Source: an uncultured Anaeroplasmataceae bacterium
GTDB taxonomy: Bacteria; Bacillota_I; Bacilli_A; Acholeplasmatales; Anaeroplasmataceae
Reading direction: 5' to 3'
Assembly (NCBI GenBank): GCA_947629825.1
Contig: CANRFF010000006.1
Coordinates: forward strand, 1 to 64,000
Length of the DNA: 64,000 bases
The notes under the pieces were generated by a model. The model was not told where the DNA came from. It searched no databases and worked only from the letters and a program-made list of their open reading frames with translations. A program made the position numbers and the translations under genes. Positions 27,463-48,851 of the stretch are shown piece after piece (the stretch's first letter is position 1; the number at the start of each line of letters is the position of its first letter).

Positions 27463-27489
27463 AAAAAAACACCGGGATTACCGGTGTTT
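27463..27489 (-). terminator. Terminator of the sigma/DUF2589/partner-switch operon
   Basis: On the minus strand AAACACCGG / CCGGTGTTT forms a strong stem followed by seven T. It includes the stop codon of the ATPase gene. Confidence 0.93.
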
Positions 27490-27894
27490 CGAAAAACGGA
27501 CATAAAGGATATTTTTGTCTTTGAGTCGTACATATTTTATTTTTTGGGTCAATTTTTTCACAAGATATAATCCCCATCCTCCGATCGATTCCGAATTTTC
27601 GGATATCAATGGTTTTTTTCGAAAGTGTTTCAGCGGATCGTATTTGATTCCGCCATCGACAAAACAAAGCTCGACTTTGGAAGGATTCAAACGACAATAG
27701 ATTTCGATTTCGGCATGAAAAGATTGTTTCCCATAACCAATGATATTGCTTAGGATTTCATCCAAAACAACAAAAATGCGACGGGAAAATGTCAGAGGAT
27801 ATTCGTAAGAACCGAATTCTTTTCGCAAAAGTTTCATCGCCTCGGATATTTCTTCGATATGATTATGCAACTTTATTTTGAACCATTTTTTCAT
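27478..27894 (-). CDS. RsbW/SpoIIAB-type anti-sigma ATPase (HATPase_c_2)
   Basis: The 138-residue protein is a single GHKL ATPase domain of the anti-sigma kinase family, which in partner switching binds a sigma factor or phosphorylates a STAS protein. The N box LDEILSNIIGYG has E46 and N50; the G1 box FVDGGIKYDP has D80 and G82; the G2 box SIGGWGLYLVK is at about 103-113. Nothing else is fused to it. It begins one base after the phosphatase gene stop codon, with GGAAAAAAG upstream. It is the last of nine co-directed genes and together with the STAS and phosphatase genes makes a full switch. Its target is not proven; the sigma factor at 33832 is the best candidate. Confidence 0.9.
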   Translation of the reverse strand: MKKWFKIKLHNHIEEISEAMKLLRKEFGSYEYPLTFSRRIFVVLDEILSNIIGYGKQSFHAEIEIYCRLNPSKVELCFVDGGIKYDPLKHFRKKPLISENSESIGGWGLYLVKKLTQKIKYVRLKDKNILYVRFSKHR

Positions 27895-27895
27895 T

Positions 27896-29578
27896 TCAGA
27901 CTTTTTTCCTTTTGAATTTCAGGCAAAAGATCGTCATATCGTCAAAAGGAACTGCTTGACCGACAAAGCGGGATAAATCCTTTTGAACCTGTTCCGTAAT
28001 CTTTTGACAGTTTTTCGAATCGGTTTGGGAAAGCAAACTTTCCCGCAAGCGCTCCATTCCGAAAAAACGATGATTTTCATCAGACGCTTCGACAATTCCG
28101 TCCGTATAAAGAAAAAGCACATCTTCTTCTTTTAATATCATTTCCTCTTCGAAATAGCGAGTTTCTTCCATGCCCGCCAAAACAAATTGTACGGTGGTCT
28201 TACGAACTTCGAAATTGCGATTGCGACTTTCTATCATCGGATATTCATGACCCGCATTGATCCAGCGAAGTACCCCGCTTTCCAAATCCAAAATGCCGGC
28301 AAATACCGTCAGAAACAACCCATTGGGATTCGATTCGCATAAAAGACGATTGACTTGATTCAAACTTTGGTCCAATCTTTTCGTACTTTGAAGATATTCT
28401 TTCAATAAAGTCTTACTGCGCATCATAAATAAGGCTGCCGGAACACCTTTTCCGGAAACGTCCGCAACGATCATCGCCAGATGAGTATCGTCAAGATCAA
28501 AGAAATCATAAAAATCTCCGCCGACCAGTCTGGCCGGTTGAATCCAGGAAAACAATTCCACCGAATCCGTCCGTACCATCTGGTTGCGATTCGGACACAT
28601 CGCCAACTGAATCTGCGAAGCCACATTCAATTCGGCTTCATATCGTTCCTGTTCGGTCGTGATTTTTGTCAAATCGCAAATATAACGGATCACGTCTTTT
28701 TCCAATTTTACAATTCCTTGAGACAAATCGCCGATTTCGTTTCTAAGGCGAATTTTTTTCAGAGGCTCGGAAACTTCCACACCGTTTTCCACAAAAAAAC
28801 CGACCTCACGGGTAATACACTGGAGCGGTTTTAAAATCCTGATGTAAAAATAAATCAGATATCCGATGATAAACAAGACCATTAAGGTCACGGAAATTCC
28901 CACCGCATAAGTCAGATATGTTTGAATGGATTGACGAATCAACCGCATCGGAATTTCCACTCCCAAAATCAATACCTCATCAAAATCGGATATCGGCAAT
29001 AATGCCGAGGTATTATACCCATACTCTCCTTGGGAAATAAAATAATTATCCGAACGCTCTTTGGTTACAAGAATTTGATAGGCTTCCTCGATGAATTTCG
29101 GATTGAAAAACCCTTGTTCTCCGAAATCGGCTTTCTTTGAATCTTTTAAACCGGCATCATAAATATACGTCAGCGGAGTCCAATGATCCAAATGTTTTTC
29201 ATAAGACAACAATTCTTCGACATTGACATATACCAAGAAAATATCATTCGCATGAACTTGTTCTTTGAGATTTGAAATCCGGTTTTGAATTTCCCGGTAA
29301 TCTTCGGATAAAATGACGGGATCTTGCGTTAAATCGATTTCTCCTTGGGAAATCTTTTTGGCGATTTCGTAATACTTGGGCAAATGTTCATCGCAAATCA
29401 TACTTTGCGCCACTTCCGCAATTTCATAGGCTTTGGTATGATATTGTCGGAAAATCTGTTCTTTGAAAATCCGATAACCGACATAGGCATTGGTCGTTGC
29501 GACGGTCATTCCCAACAATAAAAATCCCACTACCAGTTGAATCGCCAGTTTCGATGTTTTTTTTAATTTTTTCTCCAT
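27896..29578 (-). CDS. Membrane-bound SpoIIE/RsbU-type PP2C phosphatase with HAMP domain
   Basis: This is a sensor phosphatase expected to dephosphorylate a STAS protein. It has a membrane helix at about residues 11-32, an extracytoplasmic sensing region of about 185 residues, a second helix at about 221-246, a HAMP linker at about 247-300, a short coiled coil, and a SpoIIE-type PP2C domain from about 315 to 560. Metal-binding residues are in VGGDFYDFF (D355) and VADVSGKG (D373), with FLYTDGIVEA further on. The start ATG 29578 overlaps the end of the GH3 gene by 16 bases and has no clear ribosome binding site; an ATG 78 bases upstream is the alternative. The GH3 and ATPase genes flank it. Confidence 0.9.
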   Translation of the reverse strand: MEKKLKKTSKLAIQLVVGFLLLGMTVATTNAYVGYRIFKEQIFRQYHTKAYEIAEVAQSMICDEHLPKYYEIAKKISQGEIDLTQDPVILSEDYREIQNRISNLKEQVHANDIFLVYVNVEELLSYEKHLDHWTPLTYIYDAGLKDSKKADFGEQGFFNPKFIEEAYQILVTKERSDNYFISQGEYGYNTSALLPISDFDEVLILGVEIPMRLIRQSIQTYLTYAVGISVTLMVLFIIGYLIYFYIRILKPLQCITREVGFFVENGVEVSEPLKKIRLRNEIGDLSQGIVKLEKDVIRYICDLTKITTEQERYEAELNVASQIQLAMCPNRNQMVRTDSVELFSWIQPARLVGGDFYDFFDLDDTHLAMIVADVSGKGVPAALFMMRSKTLLKEYLQSTKRLDQSLNQVNRLLCESNPNGLFLTVFAGILDLESGVLRWINAGHEYPMIESRNRNFEVRKTTVQFVLAGMEETRYFEEEMILKEEDVLFLYTDGIVEASDENHRFFGMERLRESLLSQTDSKNCQKITEQVQKDLSRFVGQAVPFDDMTIFCLKFKRKKV

Positions 29579-31044
29579 AATTTTTCGGATAAAATCATCG
29601 GCGGGCGTTTTCTTTTTTTCGATAAATCGGAAAAAGAATATTCGCAAAAGATCCATTGCGGAGAGGCGATGATTTCATTTTTCCTTAAAACGTGATAATT
29701 ATAATTGATTTTGCGCAAAATTTCATCGAAAGTTTTGGAAGCATAAGGAAAAAGACTTGGCGAAAGATTGGTCAAAACCGAATATCGAGGCGGAACTTCG
29801 TCTTTTTGTTCTCTGATTTGAAAAAACGGAAAGTCCAAATGAAGCATTACGCTCAACTGATAAAAAGCCTTTTTTACCATTTCCTCCGTCGTTTTTTCAC
29901 CGGCAACATCCAGTATCAACTCTTTCCTTCCCAGCACTTTGAATTTCGGATTTTCTCCTTCAAAACCGACGATTTTCAAAACATCGTTCATATGATATCG
30001 GTAAAAACCATTGAAGGTCGTGACAATCAATTCATAGTTTTTCCCGACTTCCACCTCTTCCGGAAGATAAATATGACCCGTATCATCCAAAAATTCATAA
30101 AATGCCGAATCCGGAAGCAACACATAAGCATCTTCATTCAAAGAAACGGAGATGCCTGCCATACATTCGCTCGAAGCATAGGAAAAATAATAAATCGGCG
30201 TTTTCAAAAGATATTTTTTCAGTCTTTTCACATCATAATCTTCTTCGGAGCCGATTCCGGAAACATATTTCAGATTCGGCCAAAGAACTTCCAGCGGCGG
30301 AACTTTCCGGTAAGTTTCAAAAATTTGTTTTAAAGTTCGGATTCTGGATAAAGACGCCTTAGAGGATCGAAAAACTTTTTGAATTTCCGGTGGGAAATTT
30401 CCACTGATTTTTTCGGAAGAAAGATCTTCCAATATCATTTTCCAGTGTTTCTCCAAATATCCGATCATACATAGAATTTCCACCAAATAAACCGATTGAA
30501 TCGAAACCAAATCCTCACATGCCAGTGCCAGTCGAAGTTTCGCATAAGGAATAGAGAATTTCTTATCGGAAAAGAGAATCGCCCCGTCAACGAAATCTTT
30601 CGATGAAAAGCGATGATTCAAAAACAAATACCGATAATACGCCGAAGACAAAAACATCGGTTCTTTTTCGGAAAAGACATTCGTATGCACCGAACGACCG
30701 GACACGGCTTTTGTCAAAATTCGGGGGACATCGTAAATATGACTTCCATAACGATTCAACGCTTCTTTCGTCAAAAAAATCTTTTTGGGGCGATTGGTCG
30801 AACCGGATGTCAATATGATGTTTTGCGTTTCATAAGAAGATTCGTTTCCAAAAGGATAATCTTCATATTTGCTGAGCGGGACTTTTTGACGGAATGTCAC
30901 AATATCTTTGATTTCACCGAAATGATACTTTCTGCCCCAAAAAGTATTTTCGTTTTCTTTTAAAATCCGAAATAAATTCCGTCGATTCTTTTCTTTTATA
31001 TGCTTATAGATTTCCAGTGATTCCGTCGATCGTTTCATCCGCAT
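29563..31044 (-). CDS. GH3-family acyl-adenylate-forming enzyme
   Basis: The protein belongs to the GH3 family (named for plant auxin-responsive enzymes), members of the ANL superfamily that activate a carboxylic acid with ATP and join it to an amino acid or another amine. The ATP-binding motif IILTSGSTNRPKK is near residue 78, YFSYASSECMAGIS near 285, and FYRYHMNDVLKI near 355 (Y-x-x-GD-like hinge, here with Asn). Length 493 is near the bacterial norm of 500. GH3 enzymes are known from plants, Bacteroidetes and Cyanobacteria; here the gene lies inside a signal-transduction operon, seven bases after the STAS gene. Substrate is unknown. Confidence 0.82.
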   Translation of the reverse strand: MRMKRSTESLEIYKHIKEKNRRNLFRILKENENTFWGRKYHFGEIKDIVTFRQKVPLSKYEDYPFGNESSYETQNIILTSGSTNRPKKIFLTKEALNRYGSHIYDVPRILTKAVSGRSVHTNVFSEKEPMFLSSAYYRYLFLNHRFSSKDFVDGAILFSDKKFSIPYAKLRLALACEDLVSIQSVYLVEILCMIGYLEKHWKMILEDLSSEKISGNFPPEIQKVFRSSKASLSRIRTLKQIFETYRKVPPLEVLWPNLKYVSGIGSEEDYDVKRLKKYLLKTPIYYFSYASSECMAGISVSLNEDAYVLLPDSAFYEFLDDTGHIYLPEEVEVGKNYELIVTTFNGFYRYHMNDVLKIVGFEGENPKFKVLGRKELILDVAGEKTTEEMVKKAFYQLSVMLHLDFPFFQIREQKDEVPPRYSVLTNLSPSLFPYASKTFDEILRKINYNYHVLRKNEIIASPQWIFCEYSFSDLSKKRKRPPMILSEKLWRKN

Positions 31045-31051
31045 AAAACCC

Positions 31052-31348
31052 TCATTTCAAATGAAATAATTTTTTAAAACCCGTGATTTCAAAAACTTCT
31101 TCTACATTTTCATTGATATGGATGATCGAAAACGTCTGTTGTCTTGCTTTTCGCTTTTTATATATCGCCAGCAATACCCGAAGTCCTGCCGAAGAAATGT
31201 ACTCCAAATTTTCAAAATCCAAAACCACATCCGGTACGGATTCCAACCGGTTCAAAGATTCTTCGAGGGATCCGGAAGTATTGGTATCCAACCGACCGAT
31301 GACAGAAACATGGCATTGATTTTGTAATTGATCCACCTTAATTTCCAT
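31052..31348 (-). CDS. STAS-domain anti-anti-sigma factor (RsbV/SpoIIAA type)
   Basis: This is a 98-residue single STAS domain. The core VSVIGRLDTNTSGSLEESL is followed by VVLDFENLEYISSAGLRVLL, where S53 (in SSAG) matches the serine phosphorylated in SpoIIAA and RsbV. In such systems the unphosphorylated form binds the anti-sigma ATPase and frees the sigma factor. The ATG at 31348 has AGGAG upstream and begins 10 bases after the stop of the 88-residue gene. The RsbW-type ATPase and the RsbU-type phosphatase lie downstream in the same operon, with the GH3 gene between. Confidence 0.92.
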   Translation of the reverse strand: MEIKVDQLQNQCHVSVIGRLDTNTSGSLEESLNRLESVPDVVLDFENLEYISSAGLRVLLAIYKKRKARQQTFSIIHINENVEEVFEITGFKKLFHLK

Positions 31349-31358
31349 AAATTTGCTC

Positions 31359-31625
31359 CTATTCCCAATATGGTTTTCTGACAAAACCGATATGATATGT
31401 TGTTTTTTGCATATAAAGTTCATGCTCGCCGATACGATATTTTCCTATGGTCGTATCCGTGCCGATGATTTTTCCCTGAGGATAATCGTTTAAGCACCGA
31501 TTCAATAAATCGACTTGCTCTTTTTGACTTTCTTCAGACAAAGGATGATTCGGATTGACACTGCCGATCACTACCGTCTTGATATAATGAATGTCGGACA
31601 AAGTCTTTTCTTTGACATCTGACAT
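31359..31625 (-). CDS. Hypothetical protein, 88 aa, in the DUF2589 operon
   Basis: I do not recognise this protein. It is small, soluble and of mixed alpha/beta pattern: an N-terminal VKEKTLSDIHYIKTVVIGSVNP strand-like part (quoted in two pieces: VKEKTLSDIHY, IKTVVIGSV), a central helix around SEESQKEQVDLLNRCLND, and a C-terminal beta hairpin GKYRIGEHELYMQKTTYHIG. No motif or cysteine pair is visible. It starts one base after the stop of the second DUF2589 gene and ends ten bases before the STAS gene, so it clearly belongs to the operon. Confidence 0.8.
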   Translation of the reverse strand: MSDVKEKTLSDIHYIKTVVIGSVNPNHPLSEESQKEQVDLLNRCLNDYPQGKIIGTDTTIGKYRIGEHELYMQKTTYHIGFVRKPYWE

Positions 31626-31626
31626 A

Positions 31627-32712
31627 TTATTGCCCCGAAGAAATCAACTCGTTGTAGTTGGTCTTTTTTTGGGAAAGATCCTGTTCGGCTGCTTCCAATT
31701 TCTTTTGGGCTTCCACCGCGCTTTTCTGCAAAGACACAAAAGCACTGTAATAATTTTCCGATTCACCGTAATCGACCGGTTGAAAAGAAGCATCTAATGC
31801 TTTCAACCCGAAAATCGGCGATAATTTTTCCGAAGTTTCCCCACCGGATGCGATCATCTTAATGAAACCTTCCGCTTGATTCTGGAAGTTAGACCATGAT
31901 TGATTGACGGTATCCATCGATTGTTGGTAGGCTTTTTCTTTTTCCTCGTCGTCATTGGCATTGCTCCACTGTACCAATTTACTTTGATAGACTCCCACTT
32001 GCGAAGATGCCATTCTTTTCATTTGCTGAATCTGCTCGTTGAGAACTTCTCTGTAAGCACTGACCTTTTTTTCCGCCGTATCGATTTCCTGACGGGCGGT
32101 CTTTCTTTTCTGTGCCTGTTTTTTCGCCTGATCGGATAAATCCTGTCCGTTTTCGTCTTTTAAAGTCGATCCGACCAATGTCGGCGCAATATTCGCCGCA
32201 ACCATATCCAAAACTCTGGCCAAACCTTCCGGTGTTCCGTGGTTGGTCGCCCGGACATCGACATGATATTTGGCCGAATTATCGGAACTTCTCGTATTGG
32301 TATTGTGAGCGCTGACGCTCCCGGAAACATTCACTTTGATGAATCCGAATTTCAAGCTGGCGGAAGCACTGGCATTGAGATCCATGGAAGATTCGGATTT
32401 TTCGCTTTGTTTGACTTCCATATCGAAAAGGATATTGACCTCATCGATTTGCAGATTCGGAATCGGGACAATCGCAAGCATCGGAATTTCCACATTCATA
32501 TCTTCCAAATTACTTGTCCCGTCGTCGTTCATCGTCCGCTTCTGATAAGCAAAGCGTGCCGTTTTGGTACTCCCATCTCTGTTGAATCCCACATACTGAA
32601 TAAACTCCGCCGTCGAATGTGCCAGTTGTCTGCTGGCATCGGCCGCCGCAGATAACGGCCCTCCGATCAACTCATCCATTCGTAATCCGGCAAATTGTTC
32701 TGCTATTGGCAT
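31627..32712 (-). CDS. DUF2589 domain protein, longer paralogue
   Basis: This 361-residue protein has the DUF2589 signature: MPIAEQFAGLRMDELIGGPLSAAADA at the N-terminus (first part MPIAEQFAGLRMDEL), then VEIPMLAIVPIPNLQID and EVNILFDMEVKQS in the beta-rich core (to about residue 190), where an Ala/Ser-rich stretch and GSVSAHNTNTRSSD follow. The C-terminal half is a long coiled-coil region rich in Lys, Glu and Gln (about 205-361). The function of DUF2589 is not known. ATG 32712 has AAGGA upstream. The first DUF2589 gene of the operon is a clear paralogue (same EELxxxPL and VEIP motifs), which suggests that the two products form a complex. Confidence 0.9.
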   Translation of the reverse strand: MPIAEQFAGLRMDELIGGPLSAAADASRQLAHSTAEFIQYVGFNRDGSTKTARFAYQKRTMNDDGTSNLEDMNVEIPMLAIVPIPNLQIDEVNILFDMEVKQSEKSESSMDLNASASASLKFGFIKVNVSGSVSAHNTNTRSSDNSAKYHVDVRATNHGTPEGLARVLDMVAANIAPTLVGSTLKDENGQDLSDQAKKQAQKRKTARQEIDTAEKKVSAYREVLNEQIQQMKRMASSQVGVYQSKLVQWSNANDDEEKEKAYQQSMDTVNQSWSNFQNQAEGFIKMIASGGETSEKLSPIFGLKALDASFQPVDYGESENYYSAFVSLQKSAVEAQKKLEAAEQDLSQKKTNYNELISSGQ

Positions 32713-32714
32713 AA

Positions 32715-32918
32715 TTATTCCTTCTTTCTTTTCTTTTTTCTGAAAAATGATATCCATTTTTTCTTTTTACTTGGTTCTTTCCAAACGACGTTTCGAATTT
32801 CTTCGATCCACAAAATCGAAGCGGAAACATCTTTTTTCGAAAACCAATCCATTACTTGACGTTCGTTGATATGATCAATACTTTTTCGCAAAAGTTGCTC
32901 GATTTCATGTGTAGTCAT
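32715..32918 (-). CDS. Small protein with polybasic C-terminus between the DUF2589 genes
   Basis: The 67-residue product has an N-terminal helical part (MTTHEIEQLLRKSIDHINER), a middle with WIEEIRNVVWKEP, and a C-terminal tail of almost only Lys and Arg with two aromatic residues (KKKKWISFFRKKKRKKE). Such a tail could bind nucleic acid or an acidic membrane surface. No known domain is seen. It overlaps the end of the first DUF2589 gene by 14 bases and ends two bases before the start of the second, so it is translated with them. The tight packing is the main evidence that it is real. Confidence 0.75.
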   Translation of the reverse strand: MTTHEIEQLLRKSIDHINERQVMDWFSKKDVSASILWIEEIRNVVWKEPSKKKKWISFFRKKKRKKE

Positions 32919-33750
32919 TTTCCAAACCGAATTTGATTTCCAAATTCATCACTTTTTCCTGATATTCCATAATCCGATTGACAATATTGGACTGAGCCAT
33001 CAAATATTTATCCCTGTCGAAATCGTAAGTATCTTCCACAAAGTCTTTATCGCTGATTTCCCGAAGACGATCTTGTTCGGCAATCAACTCGTCGATTTTT
33101 TGATAAAGTTGTTTCAAATGCATGATTTTCGCTTTCAGTTGTTTGACTTCCATAGACATTTTCTTCTGTTCTTCGGAACCCCATTCACCCGTGATCGCTA
33201 CCGGTCTGGTGTTTAATTTTTTCGCAACCTGACTGGAACTCAAAGAATCGACCAACCGTAAAATTCCTTCCGTAGCCGGAATCGCATTCACTTGCAGTTG
33301 GTACGAAATCTTCGGTAAAAAATCACTTTCTCTTTGTGAAGGAGAACAAATTCTGGCATAAATTTCCTTGGTTTGTCCTTGCTTGTCCACCATGGCTTTG
33401 ACTTCCGTCGAAAAAGATATTTCGGCTTTGTCTACATTCAACTGATTCATCGAAAGAATGGATATTAAAGGGATTTCCACTTGAAGATTATCGACACTGT
33501 ATCCGTCCGCTTCCTGTTTCAATTGATCGTAAGCCACATTGATATGATCCAAATAAATGATTTCTTCTTTGCCGACTTGTTCTACTCTTCCCATCTTCCG
33601 AATATTTTCTATCACTTGCATTCGCAGTTGCTGATTGGCTTCGGAAAGAGCCTGTAAGGGAGCATAAACCAACTCTTCAATGGAAATAAAATCATTGTGG
33701 ACAAGTCCGTCCGGAAACTGATCTTCCGATTGATTTTTATCTTTTCCCAT
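32905..33750 (-). CDS. DUF2589 domain protein, shorter paralogue
   Basis: This 281-residue protein is the first DUF2589 gene of the operon. The family pattern is EELVYAPLQALSEANQQL near residue 25, VDNLQVEIPLISILSMNQL near residue 88 and a strand-rich core to about 190, followed by a helical, coiled-coil-like tail (QLKAKIMHLKQLYQKIDEL and following). Compared with the paralogue at 31627 the N-terminus has an acidic 20-residue extension and the tail is shorter. RBS AAGGAG lies upstream. It starts 82 bases after the sigma factor gene, and that gap holds a motif also found upstream of the sigma gene (33792-33812). Function is unknown. Confidence 0.88.
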   Translation of the reverse strand: MGKDKNQSEDQFPDGLVHNDFISIEELVYAPLQALSEANQQLRMQVIENIRKMGRVEQVGKEEIIYLDHINVAYDQLKQEADGYSVDNLQVEIPLISILSMNQLNVDKAEISFSTEVKAMVDKQGQTKEIYARICSPSQRESDFLPKISYQLQVNAIPATEGILRLVDSLSSSQVAKKLNTRPVAITGEWGSEEQKKMSMEVKQLKAKIMHLKQLYQKIDELIAEQDRLREISDKDFVEDTYDFDRDKYLMAQSNIVNRIMEYQEKVMNLEIKFGLENDYT

Positions 33751-33791
33751 CTGTTCACTCCTTTCCTTCCCGTATTTTCAGATCAATGGCA

Positions 33792-33812
33792 TCATTTTCA
33801 CTATATAAAACC
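33792..33812 (-). promoter_or_regulatory. Candidate alternative promoter motif before the DUF2589 genes
   Basis: On the minus strand GGTTTTAT (33805-33812) is followed, 8 bases later, by AATGA (33792-33796). The same two blocks, with three more bases between, occur upstream of the sigma gene. There is no sigma-A promoter here. This may be a site for the sigma factor encoded just upstream; the difference in spacing argues for caution. Confidence 0.3.
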
Positions 33813-33831
33813 TTATTTTTTTGAATTTTTA

Positions 33832-34575
33832 CTACTTTTCGAAAAAGAATTTGTATTTTTCGTAGATCTGTTTCATCTTTTTGGAAACCGATTGTTGACT
33901 GATTCCCAGTTGATATGCCACTTCGGCCTGACTGTTTATTTTCGAACCCGAAATAAACAAAGACAAAAATTGCGCATCTTCTTGAGAAAAGCCCAATTTC
34001 AAAAAAGAAATCACTTCTTTTTGTTTGTCTTTCAGTTGATATAAAAATTCCTGTCCGTGACCGTTTTTTCGATTCAAAATCCGTTTTTCATATTTGAAAT
34101 AATTCTCGTTTTTTCGAAAAAAATCGGCAACAATCGAGTTTAATCGCTGATTTAAAACCGACAAAAACTGATTTTGGGCATTAAATCGAAAAAACGATTC
34201 CGTAAAAAGACGATATCCTTCTTCACTTTCAAACGCACACCAGAAATTCGTATGATCCGTTTTCAAAAAACAAAGGATATAAGGATTATGGAAGATTTCC
34301 ATCACCGTTTCTTCGAAAGTATCGTTATTCAACAGACGATTTTTATTTTCGGAATTGAACAAATCGGAATCGATCTCTTTTGGTTGAAATTCAAATTTCA
34401 GAATCAGAGAATATAATCCCATTTTAAATTCCTGTAAAATGTCTTCCTGATCTTTTTTCGGAATTTTTTTCAATCGTTTCAACATCATCGGAAAAAGCGA
34501 ATCCAAAATTTTTTTCAGCACCTCTTCCGAATGAGTTTTCCTGTAACTCAAAATCAACTCGACGATATTTGTCAT
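33832..34575 (-). CDS. Divergent sigma-70 family RNA polymerase sigma factor
   Basis: The 247-residue protein looks like an alternative sigma factor. Region 2 is seen at about residues 35-65 (KKDQEDILQEFKMGLYSLIL, the D-x-x-QE pattern of sigma region 2.1/2.2), and region 4 at about 185-245 with the helix-turn-helix SQAEVAYQLGISQQSVSKKM. Between them is an unusual insert of more than 100 residues, so regions 2.3-2.4 are poorly conserved. It is the first gene of the nine-gene operon; RBS GAGGAG precedes the ATG. The downstream STAS, phosphatase and ATPase genes make it the likely target of partner switching. It could also be a phage-type or YvrI-like factor; the sigma call itself is fairly sure, its class is not. 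Confidence 0.78.
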   Translation of the reverse strand: MTNIVELILSYRKTHSEEVLKKILDSLFPMMLKRLKKIPKKDQEDILQEFKMGLYSLILKFEFQPKEIDSDLFNSENKNRLLNNDTFEETVMEIFHNPYILCFLKTDHTNFWCAFESEEGYRLFTESFFRFNAQNQFLSVLNQRLNSIVADFFRKNENYFKYEKRILNRKNGHGQEFLYQLKDKQKEVISFLKLGFSQEDAQFLSLFISGSKINSQAEVAYQLGISQQSVSKKMKQIYEKYKFFFEK

Positions 34576-34625
34576 GGTTTTCTCCTCAAAACGAATTCAT
34601 AAATGCGAAAAACATTTCGTTTATG

Positions 34626-34649
34626 TCATTCTTATTGAAACATAAAACC
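34626..34649 (-). promoter_or_regulatory. Candidate alternative promoter motif before the sigma gene
   Basis: On the minus strand GGTTTTAT (34642-34649) and AATGA (34626-34630) recur in the same order as upstream of the DUF2589 genes. No sigma-A promoter is seen in this 120-base leader. Self-activation by the sigma factor is an inference. Confidence 0.3.
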
Positions 34650-34760: not shown

Positions 34761-34967
34761 TCAAATCGGGATCATTCCGCTTTTCAAAAGAATAAGAATG
34801 GCTTGTGTGCGACTGGAAACCCCCAGTTTGCCGATGACATTGCTGATATGATTCCGTACGGTTTTATCACTGATGGAAAGTTTTTCGGCAATCGATTTTG
34901 TCGTCTCATTCTCTATTAACAATTTAAAAATCTCCAATTCTCTCGGAGTCAAGAAATGCTGATTCAT
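34761..34967 (-). CDS. Stand-alone LuxR/GerE-type DNA-binding protein
   Basis: The 68-residue product is a bare GerE-type helix-turn-helix: LTPRELEIFKLLIENETTKSIAEKL and SISDKTVRNHISNVIGKLGVSSRTQA (shown here by the shorter pieces LTPRELEIFKLL, SISDKTVRNHI and KLGVSSRTQAI). There is no receiver or ligand-binding domain. Its size recalls GerE of B. subtilis (74 aa), a late sporulation regulator, but single LuxR domains also occur elsewhere. The ATG at 34967 has GGAGG upstream. It is a separate unit between uvrC and the sigma/DUF2589 operon, in the same direction. Confidence 0.92.
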   Translation of the reverse strand: MNQHFLTPRELEIFKLLIENETTKSIAEKLSISDKTVRNHISNVIGKLGVSSRTQAILILLKSGMIPI

Positions 34968-48034: not shown

Positions 48035-48055
48035 CGGTTAACCTCCGTTTAAAAT

Positions 48056-48152
48056 TTTAAAAACTTCCCACCAAGACATGAGAAGTTTTTCAATCTTATC
48101 ATACCTCGGTAGAAATTAAGTGCTTTCGCACGCCTACTGTCTTCGGCGATTC
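48056..48152 (-). promoter_or_regulatory. L10 leader (r-protein autoregulation element) with attenuator
   Basis: The minus-strand RNA has the Firmicute L10-leader features in order: a stem formed by CAGUAGG and its partner CUACCGAGG (near 48133-48139 and 48105-48113) enclosing a GCGUGCGAAAGCAC-like hairpin, then a terminator hairpin AAACUUCUCAUG...GGGAAGUUU with T-run (48059-48090). In the known systems L10-L12 binding favours the terminator. It fills the 124-base gap between rplA and rplJ. Confidence 0.85.
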
Positions 48153-48158
48153 ATTTTT

Positions 48159-48851
48159 TTATTTATTCAGTGTATCTGAATCAATTCGAACACCGGGTCC
48201 CATCGTCGATGCTACGGAAACATTCTTGATATAGGTCCCTTTTACCGTTGAAGGACGAGCCTTCATCAACGCATCATAGACAACTTTTAAGTTTTCTTTC
48301 AACTTTTCGGCACCGAAAGATACTTTTCCGATTGTCATCTGAATATTTCCTACTTTATCCGGACGATATTCCACTTTACCGGCTTTGATATCCTTGACTG
48401 CTTGGGCGATATTCATTGTCACCGTTCCGGTTTTCGGGTTTGGCATCAATCCTTTCGGACCCAAAACTCTACCTAACCGTCCGAGTTCCCCCATCATATC
48501 CGGGGTTGCGACAATAACGTCAAAATCAAACCAGCCCTGATTGATTTTCGCAATCATATCCGAATCTCCGACATAATCGGCTCCGGCTTCTTTGGCTTCC
48601 GTTTGTTTGGCACCGCGACAAACCACCAAAACCTTACGTGTTTTACCGGTTCCGTTCGGCAATACGATCGCTCCGCGAATGTTATGATCTGCTTTCCGAG
48701 GATCGATTCCCAAACGGAAAGCAACATCGACAGATGCATCGAATTTGGAAGTAGACGTCTTACAAGCCAGTTCCAATCCTTCCAGAACCGGATATGCCTT
48801 GGAACGATCTACCAATTTTGCCGCTTCAACGTATTTTTTTCCTCTCTTCAT
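48159..48851 (-). CDS. rplA: 50S ribosomal protein L1
   Basis: L1 forms the mobile stalk at the ribosomal E site and in many bacteria represses its own operon. The N-terminus [17 protein letters not shown], the [20 protein letters not shown] signature near residue 125 and the C-terminal [19 protein letters not shown] (pieces within the limit) are typical. ATG 48851 has AGGAGG upstream; the longer frame would run through the leader. Length 230 is normal. A copy of the L1-type motif (48867-48893) directly precedes the gene. Confidence 0.98.

Follow-up and report, generated by a model that had tools for sequence, protein, structure and literature searches.

Gene content of the operon

The window analysed here is a 64,000-nt stretch (positions 1 to 64,000, forward strand, of contig CANRFF010000006.1, assembly GCA_947629825.1) from an uncultured Anaeroplasmataceae bacterium whose genome comprises 1.42 Mb in 12 contigs. 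It contains an operon on the minus strand (27478-34575) that encodes a pair of DUF2589 proteins together with the components of an RsbU/RsbV/RsbW-type partner switch. An original prediction made from the DNA letters had described nine co-directional genes; all nine open reading frames (ORFs) are present in the order it gave, and neighbouring genes overlap or are separated by no more than 81 nt.

The first gene (33832-34575, ribosome-binding site gaggag at 34575) encodes a sigma-like or helix-turn-helix (HTH) protein of 247 amino acids (aa), with a region-4-like C-terminus and a weakly sigma-like N-terminal half. It is followed by DUF2589-A (32905-33750; 281 aa; PF11655, E 4e-16), the small basic protein p67 (32715-32918; 67 aa, net charge +8), which has zero matches in Pfam and NCBIfam, DUF2589-B (31627-32712; 361 aa; PF11655, E 5e-41) and S88 (31359-31625; 88 aa), a protein with the conserved motif ...YHIGFxRKPxW. 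Next come a STAS or RsbV-like anti-anti-sigma protein (31052-31348; 98 aa; PF01740, E 3e-16; TIGR00377 above cut-off) and a GH3-family adenylating enzyme that resembles acyl-acid amido synthetases (29563-31044; 493 aa; PF03321, E 1e-30; PF23571). The last two genes encode a SpoIIE/PP2C phosphatase (27896-29578; 560 aa; PF07228, E 2e-44) and an RsbW-like GHKL ATPase or kinase (27478-27894; 138 aa; PF13581, HATPase_c_2, E 2e-12). The domain calls made earlier hold for both DUF2589 proteins, STAS, the N-terminal and central domains of GH3, SpoIIE and HATPase_c_2. According to Shine-Dalgarno sequences and homologue lengths, DUF2589-B starts at 32712 and not at 32757, the STAS protein at 31348 and not at 31423, and the phosphatase more likely at 29578 than at 29656. 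Transmembrane (TM)-like stretches occur in two operon proteins only, the phosphatase (two) and the GH3 enzyme (one). The unit closes, as predicted, with an intrinsic terminator-like hairpin on the minus strand, in which a 10-bp stem is followed by a T-run (27490-27466); the next gene beyond it has a good promoter match of its own (TTGACA-17-TATATT, 27444-27416).

A conserved core linked to a partner switch

Relatives of the operon were collected with DUF2589-B. A scan of genomes with the single sequence found zero relatives, whereas an alignment-based scan yielded 277 bacterial and 33 viral stretches related to it, the latter on IMG/VR contigs that are viral by database label. From the 277 we kept the 80 loci most similar to DUF2589-B; they are mostly from Lachnospiraceae, which dominate, and Treponema, so that the counts below describe this sample and not an even one. 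Genes were counted as tblastn matches anywhere within the fetched stretch, because the greedy ORF caller overlooks some genes, e.g. S88.

DUF2589-A, DUF2589-B and S88 are found together in most of the 80 loci, and they also co-occur in plasmids of Vibrio and Deltaproteobacteria and in a distant Bacillota genome. In relatives, a protein of about 100 aa is sited between the two DUF2589 genes, and p67 is its positional counterpart. DUF2589-A, the small protein, DUF2589-B and S88 thus form a core that is conserved well beyond the source genome. More generally, DUF2589 pairs are common to phages, Pseudomonadota, Treponema and gut Bacillota, and most of the bacterial copies carry S88. Of the papers covered by a full-text search, one mentions DUF2589 and none PF11655. 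The idea that the operon serves anti-phage defence was dropped, as PADLOC gave no usable match.

The linkage of this core to the switch is conserved as well. STAS is present in 46 loci, SpoIIE in 41 and RsbW in 40; all three are present in 39 of the 80, and where S88 and STAS occur together, STAS lies at most 600 nt downstream of S88 in 43 of 45 loci. The full RsbU/RsbV/RsbW-type module that had been read from the window is a complete switch, and its linkage to the DUF2589 cassette recurs. Its catalytic positions are intact: the phospho-acceptor of the STAS protein, Ser53 in the motif SSAGLR, is invariant in 46 of 46 loci, and, unread letters aside, so are the E, N, D and G of the kinase N-box, G1 and G2 and the metal-binding Asp residues of the PP2C phosphatase in the aligned loci. 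With a phosphorylatable Ser, GHKL boxes and PP2C Asp residues, the window operon has, by its sequence, the parts of a module of this type. Elsewhere, the source genome encodes another SpoIIE as well as a SpoIIAA/AB pair (the names are our own reading), therefore the switch of the operon is a separate, second one.

Of the HAMP and sensor domains previously attributed to the phosphatase, Pfam calls neither in the window protein, but an orthologue from Lachnospiraceae (L017) has dCache_1 and HAMP above cut-off. In the window protein, the two TM-like segments surround a region of about 190 aa that is probably extracytoplasmic. The orthologue in L017 combines dCache, HAMP, SpoIIE and HATPase in one polypeptide; a second Lachnospiraceae phosphatase that was scanned is a SpoIIE-HATPase fusion, and most phosphatases of the other loci are similar in length.

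Two further observations concern the neighbours of the core. In six loci from Treponema and Spirochaetaceae (L082, L084, L085, L086, L089, L093), a small Fascin-beta-trefoil-like protein (PF06268, E 4e-14, from a scan of the L082 protein alone) and an unnamed protein of about 360 aa adjoin the DUF2589 genes. Where STAS does not follow S88, some loci have varied hydrolase-like genes directly downstream of S88: Exo_endo_phos (PF03372) in L043 and Peptidase_C39_2 (PF13529) in L046 according to scans, and a C39-like cluster member in L049 and an Exo_endo_phos-type gene in L008 as assigned by cluster or by eye.

Lytic enzymes and phage late genes

Lytic enzymes are the second recurrent companion of the core. 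Amidase matches occur in 54 of the 80 loci and GH24 lysozyme matches in 47; as a rule they are located shortly upstream of DUF2589-A. A single lysin from a bacterial locus was scanned; it consists of Amidase_2 and Phage_lysozyme domains and matches a PHROG endolysin (E 2e-53). Furthermore, a GH24-like lysozyme adjoins DUF2589-A in Burkholderia (L012), and on the Deltaproteobacteria plasmid a gene annotated as peptidoglycan-binding lies downstream of the core. Among the viral contigs, 10 loci have a member of an endolysin cluster upstream of the B-A pair, one or two genes away; the single member scanned matches phrog_465 (E 1e-37). In 10 loci a small ORF with a TM segment (c14) adjoins the pair, and in three contigs (L115, L116, L118) the pair lies between two GH24-cluster genes; a terminase or portal gene is found near the pair in several.

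Upstream of the lysin-DUF2589 operon, a near-palindromic site pair in inverted orientation, of the type ACAAAATACGATATTTTGT / ACAAAATATCGTATTATGT and 130-458 bp apart, is conserved in 20 loci (L015, L017, L020, L021, L024, L031, L036, L040, L047, L051-L053, L055, L057, L059, L067, L074, L076, L079, L092). It resembles a pair of inversion sites or operators, and in several loci a tyrosine-recombinase ORF precedes it at a short distance. An invertible promoter in the Lachnospiraceae operons was considered, but all comparable segment pairs share one orientation and give no sign of inversion.

A proposed envelope-active cassette

From the gene content, its conservation, the intact catalytic motifs and the linkage to lysins and phage late genes, we propose that the operon is an accessory, probably phage-derived cassette that acts on the cell envelope under the control of a partner switch; we assign this reading a probability of about 40%. 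According to this model, DUF2589-A, DUF2589-B and S88 would bring about controlled permeabilisation, lysis or the release of material, and the switch would hold them in check post-translationally. A signal from outside would be sensed by the membrane phosphatase, which would dephosphorylate the STAS protein at Ser53; the dephosphorylated protein could then bind either the RsbW-like kinase or a different client and so release the output. Between STAS and phosphatase, a slot receives an exchangeable enzyme (GH3 here, a GNAT-like protein in many Lachnospiraceae), and the sigma-like HTH protein that heads the operon in this genus would probably be a local transcription activator and not necessarily the client of the switch. 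Function is read here from neighbouring genes only, and from these we infer the action on the envelope, the phage origin, the signal, the client and the direction of control.

Several observations speak against such a cassette. None of the three switch genes is present in 34 of the 80 loci, some of which are short contigs. S88 has zero matches in Pfam, NCBIfam and PHROG, and neither a solved relative nor a matching solved fold was found for DUF2589. The window operon itself contains no lysin, hence no peptidoglycan lyase stands beside its DUF2589 pair, and no holin-like protein was seen among its products, where TM-like segments are confined to the GH3 enzyme and the phosphatase. A Lachnospiraceae lysin used as a query had no match in the source genome and two others (G010, G220) in a search run without a positive control. 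Finally, the DUF2589 pair of phages could equally be a virion component.

The last point leads to the strongest of the alternatives, which we nevertheless regard as doubtful: DUF2589-A and DUF2589-B could be domesticated proteins of a phage particle or tail, so that the pair builds a structure, the lysins release it, and the enzymes encoded nearby are its cargo. The position of the pair among late and packaging genes in phage contigs is consistent with this, as are the varied hydrolases that adjoin S88 in L043 and L046. The AlphaFold 2 model of DUF2589-B (mean predicted local distance difference test score, pLDDT, 78) comprises a confident long coiled coil and a modest beta-rich N-terminal domain, with a long low-confidence loop between strands; such long loops between strands occur in some assembling proteins. 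A phage homologue gave a poor fold (pLDDT 53). On the other hand, PHROGs show no phage structural family at useful E-values, and a Foldseek search with the DUF2589-B model returned nothing at E <= 0.001 from the PDB and a single match among viral models, one unnamed protein of 44% identity. In addition, genes for capsid, tail tube and sheath were not recognised in the bacterial loci examined, which were partly scanned.

The sigma-like protein

The original prediction favoured a classical sigma switch, in which the RsbW-like ATPase holds the sigma-like protein until the dephosphorylated STAS protein frees it and the operon is transcribed. The position of the gene agrees with this model, since it stands first in the operon and also lies ahead of the core in the contig of the sister species. 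Moreover, region 4 of the true sigma factors encoded in the genome can be aligned to the C-terminus (hhalign 94%), the N-terminus weakly matches one sigma-like model (E 4e-4), and four of five members of the family match sigma models weakly. However, the 247-aa protein is below every curated sigma cut-off (best TIGR02937, 20.2 against 42.9 bits), the profile match is confined to region 4 and obtainable from any HTH, and a profile search of the PDB returned no sigma factor. A Pfam region-2 search of the source genome retrieved four other sigma genes, not this one: an RpoD-like gene and three which we read as SigE, SigG and SigK. When a profile of these four was compared with the ORFs called by the greedy caller in the loci, it detected only this sigma-like family and one marginal match; relatives thus have no clear sigma protein among their called ORFs, except for the copy of the sister species. 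A sigma-70 client that is encoded beside the switch or conserved with it, as in the sigma-B and sigma-F systems, was not found with this profile, the candidate in the window being below all cut-offs. Furthermore, around the relatives of the protein in this genus, among them a second copy in the source genome, the stretches read contain no switch gene. That the switch controls a sigma factor is thus doubtful, and the post-translational gating of the envelope cassette is the reading we favour.

The second copy (G000:C8:48254-48988) and the relatives in two sister genomes, G005 and G008 (L143-L145), are surrounded by small lipoprotein-like and hydrolase-like genes and represent a separate locus type.

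The variable slot and the GH3 enzyme

The GH3 enzyme had been counted as part of the gene set, a view that does not stand: only one other locus of the 80 (L049, Eubacterium sp. 14-2) has GH3, and in the sister contig SpoIIE and RsbW come immediately after STAS. Elsewhere the slot beside STAS holds a GNAT-like protein (many Lachnospiraceae), a transporter, other genes or nothing. An independent spread of the GNAT gene was also considered, and the gene had no match outside its own genome among 61 genomes. Taken together, the gene set proposed originally is conserved in its core and switch but not in its GH3 and sigma genes.

By its sequence, the window enzyme has the domain and the three nucleotide-binding motifs of a GH3 amido synthetase, all readable (TSGSTNRPKK, YASSE, GFYRYHMND). 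In these features it resembles plant GH3 proteins and the bacterial OlsH, which makes N-acyl ornithine (PMC12493201), and by analogy it may make an acyl-amino compound; it differs from them in scoring 36.7 bits to OlsH, far below the cut-off of 620, and in having no C-terminal GH3_C match. A model in which the switch acts on the slot enzyme, GH3 or GNAT, through direct binding, so that an acyl-amino compound or lipid is produced and the DUF2589 cassette is a co-regulated target or carrier, is improbable. GH3 and GNAT do share the slot beside STAS, the GH3 motifs and the OlsH precedent fit, and sigma-free partner switches are described (SiaABC, PMC7647112; SiaC-SiaD, PMC8457831), but the distance to OlsH is large, and the switch does not require the enzyme, given that nothing fills the slot in the sister contig and some Lachnospiraceae loci.

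Distribution and genome context

DUF2589 occurs in two of 60 related genomes and in two of 392 genomes of the phylum, the source genome being counted in both. The operon is hence accessory and sporadically distributed, and it was probably spread horizontally. The record of the sister species carries the label of an uncultured Mollicutes metagenome-assembled genome (L030); there, core and switch are split between two contigs and are presumably adjacent. In another sister genome (G008), unrelated genes occupy the region between GerE and murD.

A GerE/LuxR ORF upstream of the operon (34761-34967; 68 aa, a stand-alone HTH) was considered as a tenth member and rejected; it is found after uvrC in sister genomes where DUF2589 was not found, and an inverted repeat with a T-run, read by eye, lies between it and the operon. 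Elsewhere in the window, positions 48049-48164 correspond to an ordinary ribosomal protein L10 leader (RF00557).

Relation to known systems

With the RsbU-RsbV-RsbW (sigma-B) and SpoIIE-SpoIIAA-SpoIIAB (sigma-F) switches, the operon shares a PP2C phosphatase, a phospho-Ser STAS protein and a GHKL ATPase with N, G1 and G2 boxes, all encoded together. It differs from them in that the output genes are a DUF2589 cassette, that phosphatase and kinase are fused in two scanned Lachnospiraceae proteins, and that the modules of relatives have no clear sigma factor nearby. Another related system is SiaABCD of Pseudomonas aeruginosa, which combines a SpoIIE phosphatase, a kinase and a STAS protein without a sigma client (PMC7647112, PMC8457831); SiaC activates SiaD by direct binding (PMC8457831). 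The window phosphatase matches the SiaA model (E 2e-18), yet with 66 bits against a cut-off of 700, and a diguanylate cyclase such as SiaD is not among the domain matches of the operon. Phage lysis and late-gene cassettes are similar in that the DUF2589 pair of phage contigs stands beside endolysin-cluster or small TM genes, and in that more than half of the bacterial loci have lysin matches; in contrast, the window operon has no lysin, is chromosomal and includes a signalling module, and DUF2589 is not among the known lysis families.

A broader proposal follows the same lines: a new envelope-lysis or release system of many gut Bacillota, in which a phage-derived DUF2589/S88 cassette is gated post-translationally, and not by a sigma factor, through a partner switch that senses the outside. 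We put it forward tentatively, as possible rather than probable. That the DUF2589 cassette is recurrently tied both to lysins and to a complete signal-controlled switch provides a concrete hypothesis for its role, and it suggests that partner switches may control the opening of the envelope, or release through it, besides transcription. For the gut bacterium from which the window derives, the operon may be a switchable system that opens or remodels the envelope.

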